From Streptomyces pluripotens (GTDB taxonomy: Bacteria > Actinomycetota > Actinomycetes > Streptomycetales > Streptomycetaceae), in NCBI RefSeq assembly GCF_000802245.2, contig NZ_CP021080.1:7130001-7194000 (forward strand): a DNA stretch of 64,000 bases, read 5' to 3'. Each line of letters starts with the position of its first letter. Position 1 is the stretch's first letter. A program made the position numbers and the translations under genes. Shown in pieces: positions 43,875 to 64,000 of this stretch. The notes below the pieces were generated by a model, which saw only the letters and a list, made by a program, of their open reading frames with translations, did no database searches and was not told the origin of the DNA.

Positions 43875-44452
43875 GCGGAAACCCTACGGACGCCCCGTCA
43901 CCAGGCACAGCGAATTGTTCACCCGACACGGCGAGGCCACGGCGGCGTCGCTGCTGCCTCATTCGTGCGTCGGCGAAGACCTGAGCGAGCCGATCACGCA
44001 CCCGCACCGCCGGGCTTCCCTGCGGGAACGCCCCCGGCCGCCGCGGGGGGCAGCGCCGGAACCTCCGACAACTCCTTCCGTCGTATCCACACCCGCATTA
44101 CCCCCACGGCCGCACGACGTCCGGAGCCACTGCGGTCAGGCCGTCCCGCTCTCGTGCGGCCAGGCTGTCCCGCTCCCTCGCCGAGCCCGGGCAAGGGGCG
44201 CGCGGCCGTCTGCTCTCGGCCCGCCGCACCGCGGAGACCGTCCACGCGCAGCCGAAGCGACGGGCGGGCACGGACAAGGCCACAGACAGGGGTAGGCGCC
44301 GTGGAGAGCCGCGTGAGGACGGCGCGGCCGAGCGTGCGTTCCCTGCCGCCTGGGGTGCCGGAAGTGCCAGCTGTTCCGCAAAGGTCTAGACCGCTAAGGG
44401 GAGGGAGGGGAAGATGAGGCGCACGGATGGCGCCGCGGGTGAGGAGTGACGG
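43875..44452. other. 578-base gap, left edge of the Hpg-type cluster
   Basis: No gene is recognised. Its right end carries the dre-like palindrome and a purine-rich leader (GGGGAGGGAGGGG) before the condensation-like gene. Confidence 0.55.
44382..44393. promoter_or_regulatory. dre-like palindrome upstream of the condensation-like gene
   Basis: AGGTCTAGACCG with a perfect ten-base core GGTCTAGACC (44383-44392), 60 bases before the next start codon. CTAG is rare in such GC-rich DNA, making a chance match less likely. Confidence 0.65.
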
Positions 44453-45814
44453 ATGAACGAGCCGGAGCGAGTGCAACTCGCCATCACCGCCGAGCGTTCC
44501 GGCACCGCACCAGCCACGTGGGGGCAGCAGGCGATCTGGGACGCCGTCGCAGCGCTCGGTGCCGAGGCAGCCCGGTACAACGTGTCCGTGGGGTTCGCCG
44601 TGGAACCGGCCCGCCCCCGCTCTGCGGTGCTCGCCGCGCTCACCGAAGCCGTCCGGCACCACGAGGCGCTGCGCACCCGCCTGCGGGTTGGCCAGGACGA
44701 AGAGCTGGAGCAACTGCTCGACGCCGTCGGGACGGTCCCCGTCACGGTGTGCCGCTCCGCGACCGACGCCACCGGCCAGTGGGGGGAGCGGCTGCTCGCC
44801 GAACTCGCCGCCCAACGGTTCGACACCGCTGCCGCCTGGCCGATCCGGATCGGCCTCGTCGAGTCGGCCGGACTGGTGCGGCACCTGGTCATGGTGCTCT
44901 CCCACACCGCGGCCGACGGCGGTGGGCTGCGCCGCCTGGCGCGCGACGTGGCCGCTCTCCTGGACGGCGCCGCACCCGGAAGGCTCTGGGAGGCCTTCCC
45001 CGCCGTCCAGCCACTGGACGAGGCGGCCCGGCAGAAGTCCTCGCGAGGCCGCCGGCAGGACGCCGCCGCACGCCGGTACTGGCTCGCCAAGCTGCGTGAC
45101 GGACCCCGCCGGATCTTCCCGGAGCGAGCGGCGCGCGACCCGGACGCACGCTATCTGCACCTCGTCCTGCACTCCCTGGCGCTCCTGCGGGCCGTCGACC
45201 ACGTCGCCCGGACCCGCCGCGTCAGCATCCAGACGGTGGTGCTGGCCGCCGTCGCCCGGCAGATCAGTCTGATCGGGGGCTCCCCCGAGGTGCTGCTCCA
45301 GGTCGTGGTCAACAACCGGTTCCAGCCCGGGATGGCGCAGACCGTCACCACACTGGCCCAGGAGGCCCTCTTCCACGTCCCCCAGGCGGGCCTCGGCTTC
45401 GCTGACCTGGTGGGCCGGGTGCAGGCCGGGGCACTGGCCAGCTACCGTTGCGCGAGCTACGACAAGCGGCGCCTGGACCGCGACATCGAGGGCCTGCGAG
45501 CCGTGCTGCCGGACCTCGCGGACCACTCGTGCTTCGTCAACGACACTCGGGAGCCGGAATTGTTCCGCCCACCGGCGCCCGACCGGGTGCCGCCGCTGTC
45601 CGAGGCGCGAGAGGCCACGGTGTTGCGCTGGGGCGATGAGGTGCCGCCCCGCCCGCACCAGACGCTCGCCCTGGACGTGGTGGATGCGCCCGGCGCCATT
45701 GAGCTGGTGGTGGTCGCGGACGCGTCGCGGGTACCCCGCAGCCACATGGAGCGGCTGCTGTGCGGGGTGGAGGGGTGCATTGTCGAGGACGCCCTCGCTT
45801 CGGGCGGTGTCTGA
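44453..45814 (+). CDS. Free-standing condensation-domain-like acyltransferase
   Basis: 453 residues, the length of one NRPS condensation domain. N-terminal WGQQAIWDAV corresponds to motif C1 and SHTAADGGG to the catalytic HHxxxDG motif, with Ser in place of the first, non-essential His. C-terminal segments (VVNNRFQPG, SCFVND) fit C4-C6. It would join a carrier-bound acyl group to an amine or hydroxyl. With no modular NRPS in the segment it probably works on the separate carrier proteins at 47423, 58103 and 58372, for example acylating Hpg; this is inference. A dre-like site lies upstream. Confidence 0.78.
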   Translation: MNEPERVQLAITAERSGTAPATWGQQAIWDAVAALGAEAARYNVSVGFAVEPARPRSAVLAALTEAVRHHEALRTRLRVGQDEELEQLLDAVGTVPVTVCRSATDATGQWGERLLAELAAQRFDTAAAWPIRIGLVESAGLVRHLVMVLSHTAADGGGLRRLARDVAALLDGAAPGRLWEAFPAVQPLDEAARQKSSRGRRQDAAARRYWLAKLRDGPRRIFPERAARDPDARYLHLVLHSLALLRAVDHVARTRRVSIQTVVLAAVARQISLIGGSPEVLLQVVVNNRFQPGMAQTVTTLAQEALFHVPQAGLGFADLVGRVQAGALASYRCASYDKRRLDRDIEGLRAVLPDLADHSCFVNDTREPELFRPPAPDRVPPLSEAREATVLRWGDEVPPRPHQTLALDVVDAPGAIELVVVADASRVPRSHMERLLCGVEGCIVEDALASGGV

Positions 45815-45838
45815 GCGGGCTCACCCGGCCGCAACAAA

Positions 45839-46549
45839 CTAAATGGCGTCGGGGGCCCAGAGCCGGGGGAGGGGCTGCGGGGGCACCGGGCCGGTGAGCG
45901 CCACGGCGGCGCGGTAGTCGGTGCCGTCTGCCGGACAGGCCGCGATCCAGCATTCTCCGAGCGGCCCCCGCATCAGGCCCGCTGACCCCGGCGGCGGAGC
46001 GCAGGTGCGCAGCCCCTGGGTCAGCCGGCTGCCGAAGGCCTTCACATACGCCTCCTTGCAGGCCCACATCCAGGTGTACGCCGCGCCGGCTGCACCCGCC
46101 CGGCCCTGAGCCCGCCGAATCTGCTCCGCCTCCGCTTCGGGGTAGTAGCGGCGGGACAGGCGCAGCGCGGCGGCCTCGGGCGCGGTGCGCTGCACGTCCA
46201 CTCCGACGTCCGTTCCCGACGGGCCGGTGTCCGGGTTCAGCACGGCCAGCAGGGCCCAGCCGTCCCCGGTGCTGAGATTCCACCGGAGCCGGGCCCCGGC
46301 CCCGGTCAGCCGGGGTTTGCCGTTCGGCCCGAGCGTGCGTCGCAGGGTGTGCGCCGGACGCCCGAGCCGGGCGGCGAGGATCTGCCGGGTGGCGGCGTGG
46401 GCGACGGCGTACCGGGGGTCGCCCCGGGCACGCCGGGCCTCGTGCGGGTCGAGGACGGCGCGCAGCCGGTCCACGGTGCGCGGTGGCTGCCGCAGCGGGA
46501 TCGACCACACCTCGATGTCGCGAGCCGTCGGCACGGGCGGTGCGGTCAC
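45839..46549 (-). CDS. Sfp-type 4'-phosphopantetheinyl transferase
   Basis: 236 residues. Motif KPRLTGAGARLRWNLS-type substrate-binding region, metal-binding VGVDVQ and the signature WACKEAYVKAFG (WxxKEA). It activates carrier proteins by adding phosphopantetheine from CoA. The GTG at 46549 overlaps the stop of the upstream gene (GTGA). The gene ends 25 bases from the convergent condensation-like gene. A dedicated PPTase within the cluster fits its three separate carrier proteins. Confidence 0.92.
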   Translation of the reverse strand: MTAPPVPTARDIEVWSIPLRQPPRTVDRLRAVLDPHEARRARGDPRYAVAHAATRQILAARLGRPAHTLRRTLGPNGKPRLTGAGARLRWNLSTGDGWALLAVLNPDTGPSGTDVGVDVQRTAPEAAALRLSRRYYPEAEAEQIRRAQGRAGAAGAAYTWMWACKEAYVKAFGSRLTQGLRTCAPPPGSAGLMRGPLGECWIAACPADGTDYRAAVALTGPVPPQPLPRLWAPDAI

Positions 46550-47418
46550 CGGGGGGCCACCCACAGCATGTCCAGGTGTCCGAGCAGCGGGTCGTAGTCC
46601 ACAGCGAGCAGCGTGCGCCGTTCGGCGCGCAGCCGTGGCAGCGTCTGGACCAGAGCGCTCCACAGCCCGGTGTAGGGGCTCCGGCGCCGGGCACGCAGCA
46701 CCTCGGCGTCCGGCGGGCCGACGGCATCCTCGAGTCCGGCGCCGAACAGCAGCAGTGGTGCCGGACTGCTGGTCGGGGCGCGGCGCCAGGCCGCGGTGGC
46801 CTGGCCGGCGGCCTCCTCGGGGGTGCCGGCCGTGGTGGCTCCGGCCGGGGCCAGCGCGAGGCCGCTGCCGCGTTCGCACAGCAGCCCGACGGCGGTGTGC
46901 CGGTCCGGAACGGGGGTTCCGGCGGGTGGTCGGTAGTGCAGGGCCGCCTGCTCCATGACCAACACCAGGGCCCGGGAGAACCCGCCGCTCACCAGATAGG
47001 TCGGCACCAGCCGCAGGGCGCTGAACGCCCCGGCGGTGCCCTGCTCGCACAGCGCGAAGGCGAACGGCCGTCCCGGGCAGTGGGCGCTCAGGTGGACGGA
47101 GGTGGCCCGGCCGGGCTGGACGTCCGGTGCCGCGAAGACCTGGATCAGCAGGTCCACCGGGCGGTCTGCCGGAACCAGCGCGTCGATGGCGGCCTCGCCC
47201 ATCTCAGCGAAGGACTGACCGCGTCCGGCGGCGAAGGCGTCCTCGTCCAGCGGCAGACCGTGGGCGCGGACCAGATCGCCGGTGAACACCCGCAGATCGG
47301 GGTCGAAGGCGGTGGGTGAGTCGCCGGCGATGTCTAGGCTCACCGCGTCGACCAGGCGAGCCGGACCGATCGCCTCCGGCGCGTCCGGCGCGTCGGCCGC
47401 AGGGGTGACGGCGCGCAC
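46546..47418 (-). CDS. Thiolase-fold, KAS III-like protein
   Basis: 290 residues. Segments such as DLLIQVFAAPDVQPG and ALCEQGTAGAFSALRLV resemble the N-terminal half of ketoacyl synthase III, with a Cys at the expected nucleophile position, while the C-terminal half is short and lacks clear catalytic His/Asn motifs. It may be a partner or chain-selecting subunit for the adjacent KAS III. The GTG at 47418 has AGGGG eight bases upstream and lies five bases after the ACP stop, so ACP, this gene and the PPTase form a tight unit. Confidence 0.6.
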   Translation of the reverse strand: MRAVTPAADAPDAPEAIGPARLVDAVSLDIAGDSPTAFDPDLRVFTGDLVRAHGLPLDEDAFAAGRGQSFAEMGEAAIDALVPADRPVDLLIQVFAAPDVQPGRATSVHLSAHCPGRPFAFALCEQGTAGAFSALRLVPTYLVSGGFSRALVLVMEQAALHYRPPAGTPVPDRHTAVGLLCERGSGLALAPAGATTAGTPEEAAGQATAAWRRAPTSSPAPLLLFGAGLEDAVGPPDAEVLRARRRSPYTGLWSALVQTLPRLRAERRTLLAVDYDPLLGHLDMLWVAPR

Positions 47419-47422
47419 GTCG

Positions 47423-47728
47423 TCACCCCTCGTCGATGATGTGCGCGGCGAGGAATCGGGCCAGGGCACCCACCGAGGCCAAGTCGTCCGGCCCGATGTC
47501 CTCGACGTCGATCTGGACGTCCAACTCGTCCTCGAGTTCCAGGATGAGTTCGAGGGTCAGTCCGGAGGTGAGCCCGAGTCCCTCCAACAGCGGTGTGGCG
47601 GAGGTGACGGGCTCGGTGGGTTCGCCCTTGAGGATGCGCGGCAGCAAGCGCACGATGCCGTCCTCCACCTGCCGGTCGGGGCCGGAGGCCGAGGTGTCGG
47701 GTGCTTCGGGGGCTGAGGTCTCGGTCAT
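47423..47728 (-). CDS. Acyl carrier protein
   Basis: 101 residues; a four-helix carrier of about 75 residues after an acidic, Pro/Ala-rich N-terminus. The phosphopantetheine Ser is the S of LGLTSGLTLELILELEDEL, where the usual D-S-L reads T-S-G. Acidic helix II fits interaction with KAS-type enzymes. ATG 47728 and ATG 47737 are both possible. It lies 109 bases after the KAS III gene, with the thiolase-like gene right behind it. Confidence 0.78.
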   Translation of the reverse strand: MTETSAPEAPDTSASGPDRQVEDGIVRLLPRILKGEPTEPVTSATPLLEGLGLTSGLTLELILELEDELDVQIDVEDIGPDDLASVGALARFLAAHIIDEG

Positions 47729-47837
47729 GCTGATCATCCCGTCTGGGGGCGGGTCCGTCGCCGGCGCACACGCCGACGGCGGACGGGAGCTGATGCGTAC
47801 GAGGGGACGACGGCGTCCCGGTGGGTTTGTGGGCGGG

Positions 47838-48815
47838 TCAGTGCTCCAGCACCATCGCGGCGAACGTCGCGCCGAGGCCGGAGGCCGCGACCAGGTAGCG
47901 GTCACCCGGACTCAGCAGACCGCGCCGGGTGGCCGTGTGGTGGTTGAGCAGGAAGTCGGCCGCGAAGCTGTGGCCCACGGAGGCCACGTTCTCCAGCAGC
48001 ACCCGGTCCATCGGATACCCGACGGCCTTGCAGATCCGGCGCCAGGAGATCCGGTTGACGTTGTGCGGGAGCAACAGGGTCACGGAGTCCCAGGTCTCTC
48101 CGGCCTGGGCCAGTGCCTCCTCCAGCACCCCGATCATGGCCGAGGGGTAGGCCCGCTGGTAGCGGTCGAGGAGGTCCCGGTCCTCCGCCAACCTTCCGTC
48201 GAACTCGCCGCGGAGATCGACGACATAGGAGAGTACCCGGTCGCGTTCCCCATCGGCACCGACCAGACAGGCCGCCGCCGTCTCACCGAAAACCGCGGTC
48301 TCCGGGACCAGTTGGGCATCCCGGGTGAAGGTCTTCTCACCCGCGACGATCAGGGCGAGGGCCTCCGGGTCCGGTTCGGCGGCCAGGAGCCGCCCCGCCA
48401 CGTCCACGGCCAGCAGGGAGCCGGCACAGGCGTGATGGGTGACCGTGAACGCACGGGCGTGCTCCAGCCCCAGACGGCCGAGCAGCTCATGCGGTGGATT
48501 GGTCGGGTACGGCACCCCGACCGGCATGCTGCGGGCGTACAGCACGTAGCGGACCAGGTGTTCCCGGCCGTGCAGTGACGTCAGCTCGCGTGCCGCCTTG
48601 GTCAGGAGGTCGGTGAGATCGCCATCCGGTTCGAAGCGGACCTGATCGAGGCCGTGGAACCGGCGTAGGAGCGTACGCTGTCGCGGCGTCAGCCCCAGTC
48701 GTTCACCCACCTTCTCCACTGGTTCGACCACGGGAGGCAGGTAGGCGGCGACTCCCTTCAGTGCGGTCACCCGGGTCAGTATTCCCACTGCTCGGGGATC
48801 ACACAAGATCTTCAC
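47838..48815 (-). CDS. 3-oxoacyl-ACP synthase III-type enzyme
   Basis: 325 residues; GTG start with GGAAGAG upstream. Active-site Cys in HHACAGSLLAVDVAG, catalytic His in LLPHNVNRISW. The third position, normally the Asn of an N-x-S-A-A motif in FabH, reads VGHSFAADFLLNHHTA, with His at the usual Asn place. Such variants occur in secondary-metabolite KAS III relatives that transfer or condense unusual acyl groups. It probably starts or terminates a chain on the adjacent ACP. It is divergent from the glycosyltransferase gene across 72 bases. Confidence 0.85.
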   Translation of the reverse strand: MKILCDPRAVGILTRVTALKGVAAYLPPVVEPVEKVGERLGLTPRQRTLLRRFHGLDQVRFEPDGDLTDLLTKAARELTSLHGREHLVRYVLYARSMPVGVPYPTNPPHELLGRLGLEHARAFTVTHHACAGSLLAVDVAGRLLAAEPDPEALALIVAGEKTFTRDAQLVPETAVFGETAAACLVGADGERDRVLSYVVDLRGEFDGRLAEDRDLLDRYQRAYPSAMIGVLEEALAQAGETWDSVTLLLPHNVNRISWRRICKAVGYPMDRVLLENVASVGHSFAADFLLNHHTATRRGLLSPGDRYLVAASGLGATFAAMVLEH

Positions 48816-48887
48816 CGTCTCTTCCTGATCGCTGCGCTGTGATGAACTCGCGTTCGACGCAGACCCGTTCACTGCTCTGGAGGCTAC

Positions 48888-50114
48888 GTGTCCTCTTCCT
48901 CCCGTCCGCTGCGCATCCTGCTGGTGACGCCCCCGTTGACCGGCCATCTCCATCCTGCGCTGGCGCTCGCCGATGAGCTGCGCGGTCGCGGCCACACCGT
49001 TGCCTGGGCCGGGCCGGAGCCAGTGCTGCGCCCCGTCCTGGGGCCTGGCGCGGAGATCCGGCCCACCGGGTCGAGGCTGTTCCGGGAGCAGGCGGTGGGC
49101 GGGACAGCCGCGATCCGCACGCTGTGGCGGGACTTCGTCGTGCCGTACGCCCGCTTCACCCTGCCCGCACTGCGCCGGGCGGTGGGGGAGTGGCGGCCAG
49201 ACGTGGTGCTGGTCGACCAGCACAGCCCGGGCGGGGCGCTGGCCGCGCATCTTCACCAGGTGCCCTGGGCGGGCTTCGCTCCTTCGTCGATGGAGCTGGG
49301 GCGACCGCCGGGGGAGCAACCGGAGCTGGCCCGGTGGCAGGAGGAACTGCTGCGCGGGCTGTGGCGACGCGCCGGACTACCCGAGGACGACTACGTGGAC
49401 CCGAGGTATGCGCCGGGACTGATCCTCGCCTGCACCTCGCCGGCACTGCTGGGCGCGGCGGTACCGGGGATGCCCGCCCCCGGTGCGGACATGGAGCCGC
49501 TGCCGCCCCAGTGCGTCGCGGTGGGACCGCTGCTGACGGTGCGCCGGGAGAACGACGCCGGGTTCCCCTGGGAACGGCTGCGATCCGGTCGCCGCCGGGT
49601 ACTGGTCACGCTCGGCACGCTGTCGGCGTCGGTGGCGGAGGACTTCCTGATGCGCACCAGCGCGGCACTGACCGCACTGGCCGACCGCGTCCAGGCGATC
49701 GTGGCGGCACCGCCACCGGTGCTGGACCGCATGCCGGAGGATGTGCTGGGCCTGCCGCGGGTGCCAGTGCTGGAACTGCTGCGGCGCGGCGAGGTGGATG
49801 CGGTGCTCTGCCACGGCGGCATGAACACGGTGTGCGAGGCGCTGGCTCACGGCGTTCCGCTAGTGCTGGCCCCCATCCGCCATGACCAGCCGATCACCGC
49901 GGATCGCGTCGCCTCGCTGGGCGCCGGCGTGCGGCTGGATTTCGCAGCGGCCGGCCCCGAGCGGATCGGCGCGGCGCTGCGGGCCGTTCTGGACGAGCCG
50001 GGTCCGGCTCGTGCCGCGCGACTGATGGCCAGTCACCTCGCCGGTCTGGGCGGAGCCTCCCGCGCCGCGGACCTGCTGGAGCGCTGGGCGCACTGCGCCC
50101 ACGTGCCCGGCTGA
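48888..50114 (+). CDS. GT1-family glycosyltransferase
   Basis: 408 residues; GTG start with GGAGG just upstream. The N-terminal acceptor domain begins ILLVTPPLTGHLHPALALADEL, and the C-terminal donor domain has the nucleotide-sugar motif CHGGMNTVCEALAHGVPLVL, PIRHDQPITADRV. This is the GT-B fold of macrolide- and polyketide-type glycosyltransferases. It would glycosylate the cluster product, or inactivate it for self-protection, as oleandomycin-type enzymes do. No deoxysugar genes are seen nearby, so a common UDP/dTDP-sugar is likely. Confidence 0.9.
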   Translation: MSSSSRPLRILLVTPPLTGHLHPALALADELRGRGHTVAWAGPEPVLRPVLGPGAEIRPTGSRLFREQAVGGTAAIRTLWRDFVVPYARFTLPALRRAVGEWRPDVVLVDQHSPGGALAAHLHQVPWAGFAPSSMELGRPPGEQPELARWQEELLRGLWRRAGLPEDDYVDPRYAPGLILACTSPALLGAAVPGMPAPGADMEPLPPQCVAVGPLLTVRRENDAGFPWERLRSGRRRVLVTLGTLSASVAEDFLMRTSAALTALADRVQAIVAAPPPVLDRMPEDVLGLPRVPVLELLRRGEVDAVLCHGGMNTVCEALAHGVPLVLAPIRHDQPITADRVASLGAGVRLDFAAAGPERIGAALRAVLDEPGPARAARLMASHLAGLGGASRAADLLERWAHCAHVPG

Positions 50115-50131
50115 CGAACGCTGCCGCATTT

Positions 50132-50143
50132 TGGTCCAGACCA
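50132..50143. promoter_or_regulatory. dre-like site upstream of the ABC exporter genes
   Basis: TGGTCCAGACCA, differing from the perfect DasR palindrome at one position, 18 bases after the glycosyltransferase stop and about 103 bases before the ATPase start. Confidence 0.6.
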
Positions 50144-50245: not shown

Positions 50246-51235
50246 TTGATCCTGACCACGGGGCTGCGCAAGTCCTTCACCTTCCGCCGAGGACGCGGCA
50301 AGCCGGTCCATGCCGTTCGCGGAATCGACCTGGCCGTGCAGCCGCGCGAGATCTTCGGTGTTCTCGGCCCCAACGGCGCCGGCAAGACGACGACGTTGCG
50401 GATGCTCGCCACTCTGATCCGCCCGGACGGCGGTCGCGCCGAGATCGCCGGAGTCGACCTGCTCACCGATCCCGGTGAAGTGCGTCGGCGCATCGGGTAC
50501 GTGGCCCAGGGTGGCGGCACCACGGACGGGGTCAGTGCTCGCGAGGAACTCGTGATGCAGGCCCGCATGTACGGGATCGCCAAGACCGAGGCCGCCGACC
50601 GGGCCCAGGCCGCCGTTGACGCCTTCGGCCTGGCCGAGTTCGGCGACCGCCACTGTAAGACCTATTCCGGCGGACAGCGGCGGCGGGTCGATCTGGCGCT
50701 GGGCGTCATCCACCGGCCCAGGCTGCTGTTCCTCGACGAGCCCACTGTGGGCCTGGACCCGCAGAGCAGGTCTCAGGTCTGGGCCGAGGTGCGGCGCCTG
50801 CGCGACGAGGGGATGACGGTGCTGCTGTGCACCCACTACCTGGACGAGGCCGACGGGCTGTGCGACCGCGTCGGGATCGTCGACCACGGCCGCGTCGTCG
50901 CCGAGGGGACCCCCGAACAGTTGAAGAAGGAGATCTCCGGTGACGCGGTCGGCCTGACGCTGCACCCTGCGGAACTCGGCGGTGCCGAGGCCGTGCTGCG
51001 TGAACTGTCCTGGGTCAACCGCCTGGAGCGGGTTCCCGGAGCCGAGGACACTTCGGGGGAGGCCCGGGACGCGGGGGAGCTGCGCGTGTATGTCCCGGAC
51101 GCGGCAGCTGCCCTGCCGCAGCTCCTGCGGGTGCTCCAGGACGCCGGTGTCGATCCGGTTCTCGTCCAACTGCGCCGGCCGAGTCTGGACGATGTCTTCC
51201 TGGCCCGCACCGGCCGTTCGCTCGACCTCGGCTGA
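50246..51235 (+). CDS. DrrA-type ABC exporter ATP-binding protein
   Basis: 329 residues. Walker A GPNGAGKTTTLRML, Q-loop YVAQGGGTTDGVSAREEL, signature YSGGQRRRVDLALG, Walker B LLFLDEPTVGLD. The ~90-residue C-terminal extension (ending SLDDVFLARTGRSLDL) is typical of the daunorubicin-resistance DrrA family. TTG start with GGGAGA ahead. With the next gene it forms a drug exporter, probably for the cluster product and self-resistance. Confidence 0.9.
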   Translation: MILTTGLRKSFTFRRGRGKPVHAVRGIDLAVQPREIFGVLGPNGAGKTTTLRMLATLIRPDGGRAEIAGVDLLTDPGEVRRRIGYVAQGGGTTDGVSAREELVMQARMYGIAKTEAADRAQAAVDAFGLAEFGDRHCKTYSGGQRRRVDLALGVIHRPRLLFLDEPTVGLDPQSRSQVWAEVRRLRDEGMTVLLCTHYLDEADGLCDRVGIVDHGRVVAEGTPEQLKKEISGDAVGLTLHPAELGGAEAVLRELSWVNRLERVPGAEDTSGEARDAGELRVYVPDAAAALPQLLRVLQDAGVDPVLVQLRRPSLDDVFLARTGRSLDLG

Positions 51236-51303: not shown

Positions 51304-52068
51304 GTGAAGTTGTCGCGGGACACCTGGCTCATCTTCCAGCGCCAGGTGCTGATCATGTGCAGGACGCCCGTCTGGATCCTGGTCGGCATCCTGCAACCCG
51401 TCTGCTACCTGCTGCTGTTCGCTCCGCTGCTCAGGGCCGCCCTGGTCACCGAGGGGGCACAGAGCCAGGCGGACGCCTACCGAGTCTACGTCCCCGGCCT
51501 GCTCACCGCACTGGCCCTGATGGGCGGCTTGTTCACCGGCTTCTCGCTGCTCGGGGAGTTGCGGGCCGGCATCATCGAAAGGTCCCGGGTGACGCCCGTC
51601 AGCCGTGCGGCACTGCTGCTGGGGCGCGCACTGCGCGAGGTGGTCGCTCTGCTGGTGCAGGCGCTGTTGGTCACGCTGCTCGCCTTGCCCTTCGGGCTGT
51701 CGGTGTCGCCGGCCCATCTGGTGCTGGCCTTCCTGCTGCTGGGACTGATCGTGCTGATGGCCTCCAGCGTCTCCTACGGGCTGGCCCTGCTGATCGGTGA
51801 CGACGCCGCCCTGGGGCCGGTAGTGAACACCCTGGCGCAGCCGCTGGCCCTGCTGTCCGGCACGTTGTTGCCGATTGCCCTGGGGCCCCGGTGGCTGCGG
51901 ACCGCGGCCGAGTGGAATCCGCTCTACTGGGCCGTCGAGGGTATGCGTGCGTTGTTCCGAGGCGACGCAGGTGCGCCCGCCGTGTTCAACGGCCTGCTAT
52001 TGACCTCTGGGCTGGCCGCGCTGGCGGTGGCCTGGTCCGCGCGGCTGTTCGCCGTGCGGATCCGCTGA
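51304..52068 (+). CDS. DrrB-type ABC-2 exporter permease
   Basis: 254 residues with six hydrophobic segments; the ABC-2 family pattern is visible in LLFAPLLRAALV, a central GFSLLGELRAGIIERSRVTPVSRAALLLGR loop (two motifs of up to 20 residues each) and the C-terminal NPLYWAVEGMRALFRGD. GTG start 68 bases after the ATPase gene. It forms the membrane channel of the two-component exporter. Confidence 0.9.
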   Translation: MKLSRDTWLIFQRQVLIMCRTPVWILVGILQPVCYLLLFAPLLRAALVTEGAQSQADAYRVYVPGLLTALALMGGLFTGFSLLGELRAGIIERSRVTPVSRAALLLGRALREVVALLVQALLVTLLALPFGLSVSPAHLVLAFLLLGLIVLMASSVSYGLALLIGDDAALGPVVNTLAQPLALLSGTLLPIALGPRWLRTAAEWNPLYWAVEGMRALFRGDAGAPAVFNGLLLTSGLAALAVAWSARLFAVRIR

Positions 52069-55216: not shown

Positions 55217-56370
55217 CGGAGGCCTCCTGAGGTCGTGGATGCGGTGCGGGACGGCTCTCCGTGCGAAGGGGGCCAGGGGTGATCGCGTAGCGGGGGGCGT
55301 CGGCTCACCGCGGTGGGACCGAGGCCGGCGAGGCTCGGACAGCCCGACAGAGCCATGGTCTCCAGCAGTTCGGAGCGCAGCAGCCCGAGAACCTGCCCCA
55401 CCCCCTCTGCCCCGGCATGGGCCAGCCCCCACAGCACCGGTCGGCCGACCAGCACGGCGCGGGCGCCGAGCGCCAGTGCGATCGCGGCATCGGCGCCGGA
55501 CCGCACGCCGCCGTCGATGAGTACCGGACAGCTCTCCGGTACCGACGCCACGACCTCGGGCAGCGCCTGAAGAGCGGGCACCGCCCGGTCCAGCTGCCGC
55601 CCGCCGTGATTGGAGACCACCAGCGCGTCCACGCCGCACTCCACCGCGATCCGGGCGTCCTCGGCGGTCAGCACCCCTTTGAGGACCAGCGGCAGTCGGG
55701 TGCGCTCCCGTAGCCAGCTGAGATCGTCCCAGGTGAGCGTCGGGTCGAACTGCTCTCGGGCGTGCGCCTCGATACCGGAAGAGCCGGCCGTCGCACGGTG
55801 GGTGCGCTCGGTGAGTCCGGGATCGAGATTGACGGCGGTGACATCGGCAGGCAGGGCGAAGGCGTTGCGGACGTCGCGTCGGCGGCGGGCGACCTGCGGC
55901 GCGTCCACCGTGAGCATCAGCGCACCGAAGCCCGCGGCCTCGGCCCGGTCCACGAGCCCGGCGAGCGCGTCCCGGCGGCGCAGCCAGTACACCTGGAGCC
56001 AGCGCGGCCCGCCGGCCGAGGCGATGTCCTCCAGAGGACGGCTGGCGAACATCCCGACCACCAGCAGCGCTCCGGCCCGTGCGGTGCCCTCGGCGGTCGC
56101 GGTCTCGCCCTGGGGGTGGACCAGTCGGTGGTAGGCCATGGGGGCGACCCCGAAGGGGGAGGCCAGCGGTGTGCCCAGCAGTTCCAGTGCACAGTCCGGG
56201 TCGGCCACGTCGACCAGGACCCGTGGCCGCAGGCACAGTTCGCGGTACGCGGCCTCTCCCGCGCGCAGGGTGTGTTCGTCTCCGCTACCGCCCTCGATGA
56301 AGTCCCAGACCGGTCCGGGGAGGCGTTGGCGGGCGTGTTCTCGCAGCTCGTCGAGGGTGAGCACAGGCAT
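55213..56370 (-). CDS. hmo: Hmo-like FMN-dependent alpha-hydroxyacid oxidase
   Basis: 385 residues, TIM-barrel flavoenzyme. LVLKGVLTAEDA carries the FMN-contacting Lys, VSNHGGRQLDR the catalytic His and substrate Arg, and LIDGGVRSGADAAIALALGA the FMN phosphate site. In arylglycine pathways Hmo oxidises 4-hydroxymandelate to 4-hydroxyphenylglyoxylate. With HmaS- and HpgT-like genes in the same cluster this role is likely; lactate or other hydroxyacid oxidase activity cannot be excluded by sequence. ATG 56370. It is the first gene of the leftward operon, divergent from the ligase gene across 246 bases. Confidence 0.85.
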   Translation of the reverse strand: MPVLTLDELREHARQRLPGPVWDFIEGGSGDEHTLRAGEAAYRELCLRPRVLVDVADPDCALELLGTPLASPFGVAPMAYHRLVHPQGETATAEGTARAGALLVVGMFASRPLEDIASAGGPRWLQVYWLRRRDALAGLVDRAEAAGFGALMLTVDAPQVARRRRDVRNAFALPADVTAVNLDPGLTERTHRATAGSSGIEAHAREQFDPTLTWDDLSWLRERTRLPLVLKGVLTAEDARIAVECGVDALVVSNHGGRQLDRAVPALQALPEVVASVPESCPVLIDGGVRSGADAAIALALGARAVLVGRPVLWGLAHAGAEGVGQVLGLLRSELLETMALSGCPSLAGLGPTAVSRRPPLRDHPWPPSHGEPSRTASTTSGGLR

Positions 56371-58008: not shown

Positions 58009-58102
58009 CGCGCGCCCCAGACCCGCGGGGGCGTCCGGCCGGGCCAGACACCAGCCGCGGCGCTCCCGCGCTCCACTCGCCTCCCCAGCCACAGGAGCAG
58101 CC

Positions 58103-58375
58103 ATGCACGAAAAGATCCGCACCTTCGTCGTCTCCGCCCTGGCGGCGATGAACTACGACGTCTCCGACGTCACCGGAGACACCGACCTGGGTCCCGCGGG
58201 CCTGGACCTCGAATCCCTCGCCCTCGCCGACCTGGCGGTACAGGTCGAAGAGGAGTTCGCGATCCGCTTCGAGCTCGACGACATGGAGAGCACCGCCCTG
58301 ATGACCCTGGACGAGTTCACCTCCGAGGTCGCCGGGCGCATCGCCAGAAACGGCCAGGTCGCGAGCGCCTCATGA
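58103..58375 (+). CDS. Acyl/peptidyl carrier protein
   Basis: 90 residues. Helix I IRTFVVSALAAMNYDVSDV and the attachment-site segment PAGLDLESLALADLAVQVEE, where the Ser of ESL carries the phosphopantetheine (usual D-S-L reads E-S-L). It lies 94 bases after the ligase gene and overlaps the next small gene by four bases (ATGA). It probably accepts the acyl group activated by the adjacent ligase. Confidence 0.88.
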   Translation: MHEKIRTFVVSALAAMNYDVSDVTGDTDLGPAGLDLESLALADLAVQVEEEFAIRFELDDMESTALMTLDEFTSEVAGRIARNGQVASAS

Positions 58376-58608
58376 CCCCGGTGACCCGTGACGAGATCGT
58401 CGCGCTCCTGGCCCGCTACGGGGAACGAAGCCCCGAAGAGGTCGGCGAGCACCTGGGTTCGCTCGAACTGACCTGGTTGCTCGCCCAGCTTGAGGAGTCC
58501 CGCGGTGCCGAGCTGGACCCGGCGGACCACCGGATCGACGGGATCCGCACGGTGGACGACGCCGCCTGCGTCCTCACCGAGGTCCTGCGGGAGGCCGCGG
58601 CACCATGA
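58372..58608 (+). CDS. Small carrier-protein-like protein
   Basis: 78 residues. It has the size and helix pattern of an ACP: ILVA-like helix I (DEIVALLARYGERS), then EHLGSLELTWLLAQLEESRG, where G-S-L replaces D-S-L and the Ser could carry phosphopantetheine. Acidic helix II fits. It is coupled by ATGA overlaps on both sides, between the first carrier and the KS. Two different carriers back to back suggest separate acyl and aminoacyl loading. Functional modification is not proven. Confidence 0.65.
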   Translation: MTPVTRDEIVALLARYGERSPEEVGEHLGSLELTWLLAQLEESRGAELDPADHRIDGIRTVDDAACVLTEVLREAAAP

Positions 58609-59693
58609 CCAGGGTCCAGATCACCGGGCTGGCGGTCCGCAGCGCGGCCGGAGAGGGCCTCGCCCCCCTGCACCGCCGGACGGTGGCCGGCCGCGCGCTG
58701 TTCCGACCCCTCGACCGCTTCCCCCGGTCCGGCCCGCCGGCCGCCGTGCTCGACGGCGACCCCGACCTGGGGACGGCACTGGCGGAGGTGGTCGACCAGG
58801 CTCGCGCCGACGCCGGCTACCCCCCGGACGCCCCGCTGTTCCTCGCCCTTCACGCCGACCGCCGCACCGCTACCGTGGTGCGGACCGTCGACCCCGCGGC
58901 CCGCGTCTACACCGGCGCCTGTGTGGCCGCCTCCACCGCCCTGATCGACGCCGCCTCGGCCATCGCGGCCGGGCGCCACCGCCAGATCGTCGTCGCCGCC
59001 GGATACCTGGTGGAGCCGCGGACCTACGCCCTGTTCGAAGCCGGCCGGGCGCTCGCACGTGACGGCGCGGCCCGACCGTTCAGCCGCGCCCGCAGCGGAC
59101 TGCTGCTCGGTGACGCGCTGGTGGCGGTGGTCCTGGAGGACGCGCGGTCCGCCACGGCACGCGGCGCCCGTTCCCATGCCCGCCTGGCCGGTTGGGGACG
59201 GGCGGGAGACGCCCACCACGTCTGCCGGCCCGATCCCGATGGCGCCGGCCTGGCCCGCGCGGCCCGCACCGCCCTCGGCCGCGCCGCACTTCGCCCCGAA
59301 CACCTCGACTACGTCAACGCCAACGGCGCCGGCTCCGCGCTCAGCGACCGGTCCGAGGCCGCTGCGCTGCACACGCTCTTCGGCCCGCCCCGCCCCGGTC
59401 GCCGCCGCCCCCCCCGCCCACCGATCGGCGCCACCAAATCCGTCCATGGCCACGCCCTGGAGGCATCCGCGCTGCTTGAACTCGCCGTCACCGTCGCCGC
59501 ACTCCACCCCCCGGACGGCGGCGACGCGTCGGACCGGCTGCCTGCCACCGCAGGCTGGCTCGGCCTCGACGAGGACTGCGGCATCCGGCCCCTGCACCCC
59601 GACGACCCGGCTCCCGACCGCCCGCCGCGGTGCGCTCTCACCCTGAACGCTGCATTCGGCGGAGCCAACACCGCGCTGGTGGTCGCCGTATGA
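58605..59693 (+). CDS. Ketoacyl synthase-like enzyme with altered catalytic His
   Basis: 362 residues, shorter than FabF-type KS (about 410). A nucleophile Cys is retained in YTGACVAASTAL (near residue 106) and the Lys/His region is retained in ATKSVHGHALEAS, but the first catalytic His of the usual NAHGTGT motif is replaced by Asn (VNANGAGSALSD). Decarboxylating condensation may be impaired, and acyl transfer or a partner role is possible, as for chain-length factors. Overlaps both neighbours by four bases. Confidence 0.78.
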   Translation: MTRVQITGLAVRSAAGEGLAPLHRRTVAGRALFRPLDRFPRSGPPAAVLDGDPDLGTALAEVVDQARADAGYPPDAPLFLALHADRRTATVVRTVDPAARVYTGACVAASTALIDAASAIAAGRHRQIVVAAGYLVEPRTYALFEAGRALARDGAARPFSRARSGLLLGDALVAVVLEDARSATARGARSHARLAGWGRAGDAHHVCRPDPDGAGLARAARTALGRAALRPEHLDYVNANGAGSALSDRSEAAALHTLFGPPRPGRRRPPRPPIGATKSVHGHALEASALLELAVTVAALHPPDGGDASDRLPATAGWLGLDEDCGIRPLHPDDPAPDRPPRCALTLNAAFGGANTALVVAV

Positions 59694-60235
59694 CGCCGCA
59701 CCTACCCACGCCCGACGCTCCGCCCGACCGTGCCACCGTGGCCGAGCCGTACCTGCTCGCCCACGGTCGCTGGACCGCGGACGGCGACGGACCACCGCCC
59801 GCCGTGGCGGGGTTCACCGGATCCCCCTTCAACCCGTCCATTGCCCTGGCGGCCGAGCGTTGCCTGCGCCAGCACCTGCGTGGGCCCCTCGCCGACGACG
59901 GCCCCGTGGTCGCCGTCGTCCTGGTCAGCGTCACCGGCGACCTGGACACCGACCGCGTGGTGGCCGAGGCCCTGGACACCGGCCGCCGCGTGCCGCCGCT
60001 GCTGTTCTTCCAGTCCAACCCCAACGCCGTGCTCGGCCACATAGCAGCCCGATGGAAGCTGCGGGGCCCCGTCATCTCCCTGGGCGCCGGGCACGGCGCC
60101 CCGAGCGCCACAGCCGCCGCGCTGCTGGACGACGGTGAGGCCGAACTCGTCCTGCTGTTGACCGCCGAACCCGGCGTGTCCACGGCCTCCCTCTACACCC
60201 ATGCCCATCCTGAGAACGGAACGGCCTTCAGTTGA
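59690..60235 (+). CDS. KS-like half protein lacking the active-site Cys
   Basis: 181 residues. It resembles the N-terminal half of a ketoacyl synthase (the ketoacyl-synt_2 type found in aryl-polyene clusters): FTGSPFNPSIALAAERCL, SNPNAVLGHIAARWKLRGPV. At the place of the TACAS nucleophile motif it reads LGAGHGAP, without Cys, and the C-terminal half is absent. A structural or chain-length role with one of the two full KS proteins is likely. Coupled by ATGA/TTGA overlaps. Confidence 0.6.
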   Translation: MTPHLPTPDAPPDRATVAEPYLLAHGRWTADGDGPPPAVAGFTGSPFNPSIALAAERCLRQHLRGPLADDGPVVAVVLVSVTGDLDTDRVVAEALDTGRRVPPLLFFQSNPNAVLGHIAARWKLRGPVISLGAGHGAPSATAAALLDDGEAELVLLLTAEPGVSTASLYTHAHPENGTAFS

Positions 60236-61857
60236 CTTCCCCCTTCCGCGGCCTGCGCGCCGCACTCGCCGCCGACCCGGCCGTCGGGGCTGGAAACGTG
60301 CTGACCACTCGTGTCGAACGGGATCTCCACCCCGATGCCCCCGCGCTCACCTTCGACACCCCCGTCGACGGCCTGCCGGCCTGGCAGCCGCTGTCCGTGC
60401 GGCGGCTCGACCACGCCGTCCGTATCCGTGCCTCTGCCCTGCACGAGCTCGGGATCCGCCGCCGCGACCCCGTCGCGGTTCAGGCGTCAAACGCCTCGGA
60501 CAACATCCTCGGCTTCCTCGCGCTGACCCGGCTCGGCGCCATTCCCGCCCTGGTCAACCCCTTGCTGGACGGCCCGCTCACGGCCCGCTACCTCGCCGAG
60601 CGCCTGGGACCCGGCGTCCGGCTGCTGGCGGACGCCGAACACCTCAACGCCCTCACCGGTCACCGGCACACCCCACTTGCCGACATCCGCTCGCTCGTCG
60701 CCGGCGACCCCGACACGGCGCCCACGCCCTACCGCCACTGGGGTGGTGATCCGATCGCCATCACCCACTCCTCGGGCACCACCGGGCTGCCCAAGGCCGT
60801 GGTCCATTCCCACGACAGCCTCTACGCCGCCATCCGCCACCGGCTCAGACTGCCCCGCCCCCAGGGTTCGCACCGGATGCTCAGCGCGCTGCCCTCCCCG
60901 CACGCCGCCACCCTGATCGCGGTCAACCTCGCCCTCAGCTTCGGCTCGGAACTCCTCCCGCTCTCCCGGCAGACCGGCCCCGACGTGTTGGACTCCATCG
61001 AGCGCTGGCGCCCCGCCAGTGTCTACGGTTTCGCGACCACCTGGACCGACCTCGCACGCCACGACCTCAGCGCCCGTGACCTGGACTCCGTCGCCCTGTG
61101 GTGGAACACCGGAGACTGCGCCCACGAAACCCACATCCGGCGCCTGGTGAACGCCGGTACCCGGGAGCAGGCCACACGCGACGGCCGCGTCCGGATCCCC
61201 GGATCGGTCTTCGTCGACGGGCTGGGCTCCACCGAGATGGGCCACTCCCACTTCTTCATCAGCCACTCCGCGGACTCCTCCCGCTACGGCCGCTGCGTGG
61301 GCCGCCCGCACGCCTTCGTCGACTGTGCCGTCCTCGGGCCCGACGGCGACGAACTGCCCCCCGGCGAGGTGGGCGAACTCGGCACCCGGTCCCCGACGCT
61401 CGCCCTGGGCTACTGGAACGACTCCGAGACGACGTACCGCACCCGGGTGCGGGGCTACTTCCTGACCGGCGACCTGATGTACCGGGACGAGGAGGGCTAC
61501 TACTACCACGTGGACCGGGCGGTCGACTCCGTCGACCTGCCCGGCGGCCAGCGCCTGCACACCGCGCTCTGCGAGGAACACGTCCTGGCCGCCTGCCCCG
61601 AGGTGCTGGACTGCACGGTCGTTGCCGTGCGCAGCGGGGATCGGACCACCACCGATGTGCTGCTCCAGCTCGCCCCGGGCGCCGCTCCATCGGATGACCG
61701 CGCACCCGCGATCCGCGACGCACTCGGCCCCGACGTCGCGGCCACCCTCCGCGACATCCTGGTCGTGGCCGACGAGGAACTCCCGCTCGGCCCCACCGGG
61801 AAGGTCCGCAAAATGCTGCTGCGCGAACGGCACCTCGCCCGGACGGCCGCCGCATGA
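60232..61857 (+). CDS. Acyl-AMP ligase / acyl-CoA synthetase family protein
   Basis: 541 residues. P-loop THSSGTTGLPKAVVHSH, the variant A5 region DGLGSTEMGHSHFF, the A7-like FLTGDLMYRDEEGYYYHVDR and the terminal Lys of PLGPTGKVRKML. The larger N-terminal domain and GSTEMG motif differ from the first ligase (56617), so the two probably activate different acids. TTG start overlapping the preceding stop (TTGA). In this operon it may load the smaller carrier or make an acyl-CoA for the KAS III. Confidence 0.85.
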   Translation: MTSPFRGLRAALAADPAVGAGNVLTTRVERDLHPDAPALTFDTPVDGLPAWQPLSVRRLDHAVRIRASALHELGIRRRDPVAVQASNASDNILGFLALTRLGAIPALVNPLLDGPLTARYLAERLGPGVRLLADAEHLNALTGHRHTPLADIRSLVAGDPDTAPTPYRHWGGDPIAITHSSGTTGLPKAVVHSHDSLYAAIRHRLRLPRPQGSHRMLSALPSPHAATLIAVNLALSFGSELLPLSRQTGPDVLDSIERWRPASVYGFATTWTDLARHDLSARDLDSVALWWNTGDCAHETHIRRLVNAGTREQATRDGRVRIPGSVFVDGLGSTEMGHSHFFISHSADSSRYGRCVGRPHAFVDCAVLGPDGDELPPGEVGELGTRSPTLALGYWNDSETTYRTRVRGYFLTGDLMYRDEEGYYYHVDRAVDSVDLPGGQRLHTALCEEHVLAACPEVLDCTVVAVRSGDRTTTDVLLQLAPGAAPSDDRAPAIRDALGPDVAATLRDILVVADEELPLGPTGKVRKMLLRERHLARTAAA

Positions 61858-63131
61858 CCACCGTGCACCACACCGCCGCGGTCACCGGGATCGGACTGTT
61901 CACCCCGCTCGGCCGCACACCGACCGAGGTCCACGCCGCCCTGCTGGCCGGGTGCGGTGGCATCACCGCACCGCCCGAGGGACACCCGGTCCACGGCTGG
62001 CTCGACCACGCTGGAATCGCCCCGCCCCTTGACGCCACCGAGGTACTCCCGCCCCGGGAGACGCGCTGCGTGGACCGCTTCGTCCTGCTTGCCCTGGCCG
62101 CAGCCGCGGACGCCCTCGCCGACGCCGGCCTCACCGTCGGACGCGACGTCCACGCCGAACGGTGCGCCGTGGTACTGGGCACTGGAGGCGGCGGACTGGA
62201 GACCTTCGAGGAGTACGCCCACCGCAGAGAGGCCCGCGGGCGCCCCGCGGTCAGCCCGTACCTGCTGCCCGGCATGCTGTTCAACATGGCTGCGGCCCGC
62301 GTGGCCATCGCACACGGCATCCGGGGCTACAGCGGCGCACCGGTGACGGCCTGCGCCGCCGGAGCGCAGGCCGTCACGGAGGGACTCCGGCTGATCGCCG
62401 CCGGACAGGCCGATGTCGTGGTGTGCGGCGGCAGCGAGACCCCGCTGCACCCCACCATCGCCTCCGCGTTCACCAACTCCCGCGCCCTCGCCTCCCGCTG
62501 GGACGACCCCGGGATGGCATCCCGTCCCTTCGACGCCCGCCGCAACGGATTCGTGCTCGGGGAGGGTAGCGGCGTACTGGTCCTGGAGCGCCCGGACCAC
62601 GCCCGGGCCCGCGGCGCCACCGGCTACGCCGAGCTCATCGGCTGGGGTGCCTCCACCGACGCCCACCACCCCACCATGCCCCGACCGGACGGCGAGGGCG
62701 CCGCGGCCGCCATGCGCGCCGCACTCCGCTCCGCCCGCCTCACCCCCGCGGACATCACCCATGTCAACGCGCACGGCACCGGCACCCGACTCGGGGACAC
62801 TGCCGAGGCGACCGCGCTGCGCGAGGTGTTCCCCGGCAACGGCCCGAGCGTCACCTCCACCAAGGGCGCCACCGGCCATCTGCTCGGTGCCTCCGGAGCG
62901 GTCGAGGCAGCGTTCTGCGCTCTCGCCGTCGCCGGGCACGCCGTGCCGGCGACCCGCAACCTCGACGTCCCCGATCCCGCCTGCCGACTCGACCACGTCA
63001 CCACCGCCCGCACCGGCCCACAGACCGCGGTCCTCTCCAACTCCTTCGCCTTCGGCGGACACAACATCAGCCTCGTGTTCGCGCCGCCGGGCATCCCGGG
63101 CCGTGACATCTCCCCTGGAGTGACCCCATGA
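61854..63131 (+). CDS. Ketoacyl synthase (FabF/KAS II-type) with complete active site
   Basis: 425 residues, the standard KS length. The nucleophile Cys sits in VTACAAGAQAVTEG, the first His in VNAHGTGTRLGD, and the Lys and second His in STKGATGHLLGASG. It catalyses decarboxylating Claisen condensation of acyl and malonyl thioesters on carriers. No ketoreductase or dehydratase gene is visible in the cluster, so the product of condensation may remain a beta-ketone. ATG overlaps the ligase stop (ATGA) and its own stop overlaps the HmaS-like gene. Confidence 0.9.
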   Translation: MTTVHHTAAVTGIGLFTPLGRTPTEVHAALLAGCGGITAPPEGHPVHGWLDHAGIAPPLDATEVLPPRETRCVDRFVLLALAAAADALADAGLTVGRDVHAERCAVVLGTGGGGLETFEEYAHRREARGRPAVSPYLLPGMLFNMAAARVAIAHGIRGYSGAPVTACAAGAQAVTEGLRLIAAGQADVVVCGGSETPLHPTIASAFTNSRALASRWDDPGMASRPFDARRNGFVLGEGSGVLVLERPDHARARGATGYAELIGWGASTDAHHPTMPRPDGEGAAAAMRAALRSARLTPADITHVNAHGTGTRLGDTAEATALREVFPGNGPSVTSTKGATGHLLGASGAVEAAFCALAVAGHAVPATRNLDVPDPACRLDHVTTARTGPQTAVLSNSFAFGGHNISLVFAPPGIPGRDISPGVTP

Positions 63132-64000
63132 CCGTCAACGGCATCGCCTACCTCGAATTCCACTGCGAGGACGCCCGCAAGTACGCCGCACAACTCCGCG
63201 ACGGCTACGGATTCACCGTCGCAGCCGCCCCCGGCCGGCACCCCGAGGACCTGACCCGGGTCATCGCCCGCCAGGGCGACATCACCCTGGTGCTGACCTC
63301 CGCAGCGGCTCCGGACCACCCCGTCAACACCTTCGTGGCCCGCCACGGGGACGGCGTGGCGGTGCTCGCCCTGCGGTGCGACGACGCAGAGGACGCGACC
63401 GAGCAGGCCCGGGCCGCCGTTGCACGTGGTGCCACCGCCACCGGGGACACCGGCATCGAGGGCTTCGGCGACCTCACGCTGCGTTTCGTCGGCGCGGACG
63501 ACCCGCTGCTCAGCGGCCCGGAACCGGCCCCCGGCGGGCCACTGCGAGAGATCGACCACCTGGCCGTCTGCCTGCCGGCGGGCACCCTGCACCCGGCCGT
63601 CCGCCACAGCGTCGGCGTCCTGGGATTCCGGATCATCTTCCGCGAATACCTGGAGGTCGGCGACCAGGCCATGGACTCCACGGTGGTGCAGAGCCCGTGC
63701 GGCGGCATCACCCTCACCCTCATCGAACCGGATCCCACCCGGGAGCCGGGTCAGATCGACCGGTTTCTGGAGGCCCACGGCGGCGCCGGCGTCCAGCACC
63801 TCGCCTACCGCACTGACGACATCGCCGGCGCCGTCCGCGCCCTCACCGCGCGGGACGTCGCCTTCCTGACGACCCCGGGCGCCTACTACGACTCCCTCGC
63901 CGACCGGCTGGGCGCCACCGGAATCCCGGTCGGGACGCTGCGCGAGCTCGATCTGCTGGTCGATCAGGACCACGGCGGCCAACTGTTCCAGATCTTCACC
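63128..64000 (+). CDS. hmaS: 4-hydroxymandelate synthase / 4-hydroxyphenylpyruvate dioxygenase family enzyme, 3' end outside window
   Basis: About 291 residues are visible. Two vicinal-oxygen-chelate domains; the iron ligands His (IDHLAVCL, near residue 144) and His (GVQHLAYRTDDI, near residue 224) are present. The final QLFQIFT segment precedes the expected Glu ligand beyond the edge. HmaS and HPPD share fold and substrate (4-hydroxyphenylpyruvate). Hmo- and HpgT-like genes in the same cluster favour HmaS, the first step to Hpg; tyrosine catabolism by HPPD is the alternative. ATG start overlaps the KS stop (ATGA), tying precursor supply to the assembly genes. Confidence 0.85.
   Translation, partial: MTVNGIAYLEFHCEDARKYAAQLRDGYGFTVAAAPGRHPEDLTRVIARQGDITLVLTSAAAPDHPVNTFVARHGDGVAVLALRCDDAEDATEQARAAVARGATATGDTGIEGFGDLTLRFVGADDPLLSGPEPAPGGPLREIDHLAVCLPAGTLHPAVRHSVGVLGFRIIFREYLEVGDQAMDSTVVQSPCGGITLTLIEPDPTREPGQIDRFLEAHGGAGVQHLAYRTDDIAGAVRALTARDVAFLTTPGAYYDSLADRLGATGIPVGTLRELDLLVDQDHGGQLFQIFT

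Follow-up and report, generated by a model that had tools for sequence, protein, structure and literature searches.

A family of free-standing-enzyme gene clusters with 4-hydroxyphenylglycine genes in Streptomyces pluripotens and other actinobacteria

4-Hydroxyphenylglycine (Hpg) feeds modular non-ribosomal peptide synthetases (NRPSs) in the glycopeptide, CDA and enduracidin clusters. It is a key building block of the clinical glycopeptides, and to our knowledge it is known only as an NRPS monomer. For the epoxinnamide cluster, a HmaS/Hmo/HpgT pathway to Hpg has been described, again feeding a modular NRPS (PMC9321520). Here we analysed a 64,000-nucleotide stretch of the Streptomyces pluripotens genome (hereafter the window; bases 7130001-7194000 of a single contig of 7346075 bases), in which HmaS, Hmo and HpgT genes stand in a cluster of about 23 separate proteins. 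The cluster runs from a condensation enzyme at 44453 to the end of an E1-beta gene at about 67030, past the window edge. The range 44382..64000 given in the initial annotation stops early, for the end of the HmaS gene and the PhyH, E1-alpha and E1-beta genes continue to about 67030. We tentatively propose a self-contained cluster of free-standing enzymes, by which Hpg would be made, extended with malonyl, joined to a unit held on the carrier protein ACPc, and exported.

The canonical Hpg supply cassette (HmaS, Hmo, HpgT and prephenate dehydrogenase) has its HmaS-, Hmo- and HpgT-type enzymes in common with the window cluster. However, no modular NRPS was found at 44453-67030, and a PhyH gene follows HmaS. 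In the cispentacin/coronafacic acid KS-CYF system (AmcB, AmcF, AmcG, AmcH), as here, a free acyl carrier protein (ACP), a short ketosynthase (KS), a half-KS-like partner and an AMP ligase stand together; in contrast to that system, the window proteins scored below the family cut-offs, no AmcE-type gene was identified and Asn replaces the first active-site His. The model of the window half-KS matched ApeC (6qsp_B) and the ishigamide chain-length factor (CLF; 6kxe_B) of the aryl polyene/highly reducing type II KS-CLF systems (ApeO/ApeC, ishigamide), whereas the window cluster genes include no ketoreductase (KR) or dehydratase (DH) and the KS partner is Cys-Asn-His. PqsB/PqsC is a heterodimer of beta-ketoacyl-ACP synthase III (KAS III) type. 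By description alone the window resembles it, since it also has a Cys-bearing KAS III and a KAS III-fold partner without Cys, but its catalytic mate is Cys-His-His and sits with its own carrier protein. Ligase 2 is nearest the NCBIfam family of AvaA6 (avenalumic acid), well under the equivalog cut-off.

The part families are known, but the literature searched yielded neither their combination nor the active-site variants or the PhyH link. No paper describing the gene set or a known compound appeared there, most subscription journals lying outside its scope, and the initial annotation could likewise name no compound.

The Hpg genes and their conserved cluster family

The predicted HmaS, Hmo and HpgT genes of an Hpg biosynthesis cassette, recognised in the initial annotation, are well supported by structure and profile matches and by the names of homologues. 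Against solved structures, HmaS scored 273 bits with 2r5v and 269 bits with 3zgj, both of which we take to be HmaS structures, and only 152 with the 4-hydroxyphenylpyruvate dioxygenase (HPPD) 1t47. Hmo scored 315 bits with the solved 4-hydroxymandelate oxidase 5zzp, compared with about 190 for single-copy lactate oxidases; its top two structure matches, at 379 and 358 bits, were lactate oxidase constructs in double copy. This gene was detected by a PF01070 search, at a place where codon-model calling put two opposite-strand open reading frames (ORFs). Homologues of HpgT were named (S)-3,5-dihydroxyphenylglycine transaminase (9 JGI names among the 120 listed) or hydroxyphenylglycine aminotransferase (P0147), the remaining names being generic aminotransferase or GntR regulator. 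No NCBIfam equivalog exceeded its cut-off for HpgT among the matches listed (25 of 54). Inspection revealed intact metal, flavin mononucleotide (FMN), pyridoxal phosphate (PLP) and thiamine pyrophosphate motifs in the cluster enzymes.

Two further HmaS relatives are present in the genome (46% and 36% identical), the 36%-identical one probably being the housekeeping HPPD. A second HmaS-/HpgT-like pair lies at 634789-637264 beside an NRPS-like gene (629002-634023, L164/L165) of 1673 aa, similar to condensation and adenylation domains. That the Hpg genes of the window merely supply an NRPS elsewhere, for example this one, seems to us quite improbable. The NRPS-like locus has its own HmaS/HpgT-like genes, yet the only full-length Hmo-type match in the genome is the window Hmo (425 bits; the next reached 94.5 bits and was partial). 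However, giving Hmo to another locus would be a side role, and in dozens of genomes the Hpg genes stand intermixed with those for ligases, carriers and KSs.

Indeed, at least 48 named actinobacterial loci, mostly from Kitasatospora, Streptomyces and Actinokineospora, hold the same genes in largely the same order; this is a lower bound, as the search patterns recover only relatives that keep certain peptides. Such recurrence indicates that the cluster is more than chance. The nearest named half-KS, from Streptomyces sp. MUM 16J, was 98% identical. Among the 40 full-length loci, all of which have the half-KS by construction because its alignment was the search bait, ligase 1, ACPb, the short KS, HmaS and PhyH were each present in 40, and ACPa, ligase 2 and FabF each in 39. 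The esterase and the ABC (ATP-binding cassette) permease followed with 37 each, the ABC ATPase with 36, Hmo with 35, HpgT with 31 and the methyltransferase with 21. Counts for the glycosyltransferase and the left block say little, as these often lie beyond the locus edge. Where HpgT was missing (9 full-length loci), it was found elsewhere in the genome in 8 of 8 searched, and in the ninth, L020, further along the cluster (L126). Likewise, for the 5 loci without Hmo a strong match (>=320 bits) was present in 4 of 4 genomes searched, and L020 again has the gene in L126. The background was an HpgT-type match at E <= 1e-60 in 133 of 392 same-genus genomes.

Left flanks, which were fetched separately, showed KAS III a - ACPc - KAS III b in 7/7, the condensation enzyme in 6/7 and the phosphopantetheinyl transferase (PPTase) in 6/7. 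Of 41 genomes, 39 had a KAS III a match at E <= 1e-20, the one in G411 being only about 30% identical. Three Kitasatospora stretches (L130-L132) have an alternative gene order. G153 and G312 have a reduced set, in which FabF, PhyH, ligases 1 and 2 and a single ACP accompany the Hpg genes and nothing matched E1, the condensation enzyme, the KAS III pair or the short KS and its half-KS; this points to the Hpg genes, both ligases, one ACP and FabF as the core. A conserved family that handles Hpg with separate enzymes offers dissectable chemistry, and its members in Kitasatospora, Actinokineospora and their relatives likely make a new class of compounds.

The proposed pathway and the PhyH gene

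In the scheme proposed above, HmaS, Hmo and HpgT would convert 4-hydroxyphenylpyruvate to Hpg, and PhyH would probably oxidise Hpg or a precursor further. One ligase would load the aryl unit onto ACPa. FabF, which alone among the KSs has an intact Cys-His-His active site, would extend or acylate the aryl unit with a malonyl unit to a beta-keto thioester. As no KR or DH was identified among the cluster genes, this thioester would be left unreduced. The short KS and half-KS would probably work together in transfer or cyclisation, without elongation. ACPc would hold a second unit, on which the putative KAS III heterodimer would act and which the condensation enzyme would join to the aryl unit. 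The esterase would then release or trim the product, the methyltransferase and glycosyltransferase would decorate it and DrrAB would export it. The gene set, the intact motifs, the conservation and the linkage to Hpg genes can be read from the DNA itself; the substrates, the step order and the product, presumably Hpg to which malonyl-derived units are added by extension or acylation and possibly glycosylated, are predicted from them. The beta-keto-acylated and possibly glycosylated Hpg put forward in the initial annotation is likewise a prediction.

Several points weigh against this scheme. The carrier chemistry is deduced largely from gene order, and the substrates of the ligases, KSs and condensation enzyme are predicted ones. 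In the left flanks, the condensation enzymes of most relatives share only 26-32% identity with that of the window (61% for L129), which may therefore have another role. HmaS also scores above the cut-off of the 4HPPD model (287.5 bits vs 277). One full-length locus, L031, has no ACPa, ligase 2 or FabF, which is a poor fit with FabF as indispensable. Furthermore, the E1 pair has no place in the scheme.

The main rival explanation gives E1 a function. The aryl unit would be 4-hydroxymandelate or 4-hydroxybenzoyl: Hmo would produce 4-hydroxybenzoylformate, E1-alpha/beta would convert this by decarboxylation into a 4-hydroxybenzoyl thioester as KS starter, and HpgT would make a separate second unit. 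4-Hydroxybenzoylformate is a 2-oxo acid, the established substrate type of E1. Both E1 genes occur in 32 of the 40 full-length loci; the eight loci without them are all from Actinokineospora, and the one genome checked has E1 across the cluster (L125). In S. tateyamensis the cluster has HmaS, PhyH and E1 without HpgT or Hmo. However, HpgT and Hmo are found elsewhere in that genome, HpgT is kept in most loci as counted above, and no E2/E3 was identified among the cluster genes. We consider a 4-hydroxybenzoyl starter rather unlikely, and keep Hpg as the preferred aryl unit.

PhyH recurs alongside HmaS, and does so in unrelated Hpg loci as well. It was matched at E <= 1e-60 in 29 of the 392 same-genus genomes, and HmaS was near it in 19/19 loci fetched besides our own, within the same ~3.9-kb stretch. 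Among these 19, FabF preceded HmaS in 9, HpgT was nearby in 5, Hmo and HpgT in 4, and neither in 1. HpgT was present in 24/29 PhyH genomes compared with 109/363 others (Fisher p 2.7e-8, with related species not independent), and 5/29 PhyH genomes had no HpgT match. Conversely, 109 of the 133 HpgT genomes had no PhyH at E <= 1e-60, indicating that PhyH is not needed for Hpg itself; it would rather add an oxidation to Hpg metabolism. As an oxygenase tied to Hpg genes it is directly testable.

Longer stretches, taken from eight genomes, revealed different settings, among them the reduced set of G153 and G312. The order HmaS-Hmo-PhyH-HpgT was found in G193, G174 and G089, with an EamA transporter after HpgT in the latter two, while G253 has a fused Hmo-HpgT. 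In G026 (L172/L173), HmaS-PhyH-prephenate dehydrogenase-HpgT-Hmo adjoins L-amino-acid ligases, a luciferase-type monooxygenase and MFS genes, for which a dipeptide-type Hpg product is possible; G206 resembles this locus by gene sizes. PhyH may define an as yet undescribed second branch of Hpg metabolism, in which HmaS, Hmo, HpgT and PhyH would give an oxidised Hpg-type amino acid for several unrelated cluster types (free-standing carrier chemistry, the EamA-exporter operon and the L-amino-acid-ligase dipeptide-type locus). Here the branch would be joined with new condensation catalysts, namely the Cys-Asn-His KS with its half-KS and the Cys-His-His KAS III with its inactive mate. We put this forward as a possibility, with some doubt.

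Condensing enzymes, carriers and ligases

The short KS keeps Cys and the second His, and the His of HGTG is Asn in 46/49 rows; of the three exceptions, L020 carries a His, the row for L055 holds the FabF ORF instead and L061 is misaligned. Loss of the HGTG His is a mark of non-elongating KS domains of trans-AT polyketide synthases (PKSs). FabF keeps Cys-His-His, with the first His in 44/49 rows; of the five exceptions, L021, L031 and L057 in fact hold the short KS, a further row shows a gap and the last is frameshifted. All rows were kept in these residue counts, including L061 and L033, which look frameshifted, and L032, L042 and L059, which are cut off. The short KS and half-KS genes overlap (58605-60235). 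The half-KS model (pLDDT 85.2) had 7f28 as best Foldseek match (E 2.9e-7), followed by ApeC 6qsp_B (E 1.7e-6), and no Cys occurs in the conserved FFQSNPNAVLGH region of this modelled KS fold. A KS gene directly before a KS-fold partner without the active Cys is the arrangement of type II KS-CLF pairs, and the two proteins may form such a putative complex.

Weak NCBIfam matches suggested that the pair could instead be a cispentacin-type AmcF/AmcG, which would close a chain derived from 2-oxoglutarate into a cyclopentene ring bearing Hpg. The sizes are similar, a KS adjoins a half protein, and an AMP ligase and ACP are alongside; this gene group resembles the minimal type of amcG-bearing clusters (ACP, KS, CYF, ligase) described in PMC10698177. 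However, the half-KS scored 40.4 bits vs the AmcG cut-off of 80 (39.8 in the genome search, where sub-cut-off proteins elsewhere reached 43), whereas true AmcG in 17/392 genomes scored 157-228 bits. The short KS reached 124.7 vs the AmcF cut-off of 325, and has Asn where both histidines are kept in 5/5 true AmcF among the rows listed (17 aligned). On these scores and the active-site Asn we rejected the cispentacin-type identity, and regard such a ring as improbable. A TAS1-type cyclising KS was also rejected: its active site, given as Cys-His-Asn in PMC4640141, replaces the other histidine, unlike the Cys-Asn-His of the short KS.

In the catalytic KAS III, C130, H251 and H282 were invariant in 11 aligned rows, the second His replacing the usual Asn (alignment to FabH 4dfe). 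Its partner gave no Pfam match and no PDB sequence match, and is assigned by predicted fold (pLDDT 90.1; best Foldseek match FabH 5bqs, E 1.4e-9); its alignment shows Gln-Gly and a non-Cys residue at the nucleophile position. Comparing the profiles of the catalytic KAS III and its partner gave no significant match (prob 1%, E 0.052). Both the partner and ACPb have little sequence evidence behind their predicted assignments. Partner homologues P0266, P0273 and P0274 are named 2-hydroxy-acid oxidase or 4-hydroxymandelate oxidase, names that the KAS III-like family does not support. The genome of L035, Streptantibioticus silvisoli, has four genes of KAS III type within 10.5 kb (L136:3820-14266), with about 29% identity to the window's. 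The KS with Asn for His and the KAS III with His for Asn are two active-site variants for condensation that can be assayed.

Three flanks carry aminoacyl-tRNA synthetase (aaRS)-like genes (L123:7811-8701, L124:1560-2441, L125:15744-16646), which share a block with ACPc, adjoin the PPTase and resemble amino acid:carrier ligases; the window has none. At L137:9706-16495, in a stretch that gave no HmaS match, ATP-grasp, PLP-decarboxylase and acyl-CoA dehydrogenase genes lie next to the KAS III pair and a carrier, and L134 and L135 resemble this stretch by size and KAS matches only. The aaRS-like genes and the L137 context hint that ACPc carries an amino acid.

Ligase 2 had AvaA6, 3-aminoavenalumate diazotase, as best NCBIfam match at 435 bits (next model 160), and could be read as a nitrite-using diazotase or nitrosating enzyme leading to an N-N bonded product. 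This score is far under the cut-off of 975 (NF058622), and no nitrite-forming enzyme was found among the identified cluster genes, the only part of the genome searched for one. We therefore rejected the diazotase role as highly improbable.

Gene inventory and surroundings

The cluster genes are listed in Table 1. Every enzyme class listed in the initial annotation was recovered by family, motif or fold evidence, and its statement that the segment holds no modular NRPS/PKS and no KR/DH agrees with the cluster genes found.

Table 1. Genes of the cluster with window positions, strand and supporting evidence (L010 coordinates in brackets)
Feature	Position	Strand	Evidence
Free-standing condensation-domain enzyme	44453-45814	+	PF00668 62.9 bits; SHTAADG, second His of HHxxxDG kept
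4'-Phosphopantetheinyl transferase (PPTase)	45839-46564	-	PF01648 39.6 bits; WACKEA
KAS III-fold partner without nucleophilic Cys	46546-47418	-	Predicted fold and alignment
Carrier protein ACPc	47423-47728	-	PF00550 33 bits
KAS III-like enzyme, Cys-His-His (usual Asn to His)	47838-48815	-	PF08541 56.1 bits
UDP-glycosyltransferase-like (MGT type)	48888-50114	+	PF00201 57.9 bits; TIGR01426 128.9 bits, cut-off 260
DrrA-type ABC exporter ATPase	50246-51235	+	TIGR01188 318 bits, above cut-off 312.45
ABC-2 permease, DrrB-like	51304-52068	+	PF01061 101 bits
HpgT-like aminotransferase	52102-53445	-	PF00155 82.8 bits; PLP Lys motif
Alpha/beta-hydrolase / esterase	53442-54404	-	PF07859 234 bits; GDSAG
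S-adenosylmethionine (SAM) methyltransferase	54401-55216	-	PF13489 36 bits
Hmo, 4-hydroxymandelate oxidase-like FMN enzyme (start inferred)	55213-56370	-	PF01070 425 bits; catalytic SNHGGRQ
Acyl/aminoacyl-AMP ligase 1, 463 aa	56617-58008	+	PF00501 109.8 bits; A3, A5, A10 motifs
Carrier protein ACPa (DLES serine)	58103-58375	+	PF00550 22.5 bits; Ser in 43/44 rows
Small carrier protein ACPb	58372-58608	+	No Pfam match; Ser in 45/45 aligned rows
Short KS, Cys-Asn-His active site	58605-59693	+	PF02801/PF00109; alignment
Half-KS / short chain-length-factor-like partner	59690-60235	+	PF13723 22.9 bits, below cut-off 25; predicted fold
Acyl-AMP ligase 2, AvaA6 relative	60232-61857	+	PF00501 150 bits; NF058622 435 bits, below cut-off 975
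FabF-type KS, intact Cys-His-His	61854-63131	+	PRK07314 421.8 bits, above cut-off 387; TIGR03150 430.5 bits, below cut-off 493.75
HmaS-like dioxygenase, cut by window end at 64000	63128-64126 (L010:128-1126)	+	2r5v/3zgj matches
PhyH	64168-65091 (L010:1168-2091)	+	PF05721 78.8 bits
E1-alpha	65076-66071 (L010:2076-3071)	+	PF00676 239.8 bits
E1-beta	66068-67030 (L010:3068-4030)	+	PF02779/PF02780

The window was extended 39 kb rightward to 103000, as the initial annotation had recommended, with genes called by a codon model, and no NRPS was found just right of 64000. All ORFs called at 67030-103000 were <=806 aa; 10 called genes were scanned there, and the largest of these 10 (YcaO, lantibiotic-dehydratase-like and AMP-ligase) included no NRPS or PKS. 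Within the window but outside the cluster, a modular NRPS-PKS lies at 3-10650 (-), comprising a PKS (KS-acyltransferase) and a 2842-aa NRPS-PKS (condensation, adenylation, peptidyl carrier protein and KR). About 34 kb, including sugar uptake and kinase genes, separates it from the cluster, and a PapA-like gene (11726-13024) is beside it.

Beyond E1-beta, just right of the cluster, follow an L,D-transpeptidase-like gene and a beta-propeller protein (L010:5912-6862, +), whose match is to a beta-propeller domain of the phage receptor-binding kind. Some 18 kb to the right of the cluster lies a group of FAD monooxygenase, 3-dehydroquinate (DHQ) synthase II-type and AMP ligase genes (L011:2526-7372, -), which we take to be of 3-amino-4-hydroxybenzoate type. 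YcaO cyclodehydratase and lantibiotic-dehydratase-like genes at L011:13842-20000 (-) are probably a cluster for a ribosomally synthesised and post-translationally modified peptide.

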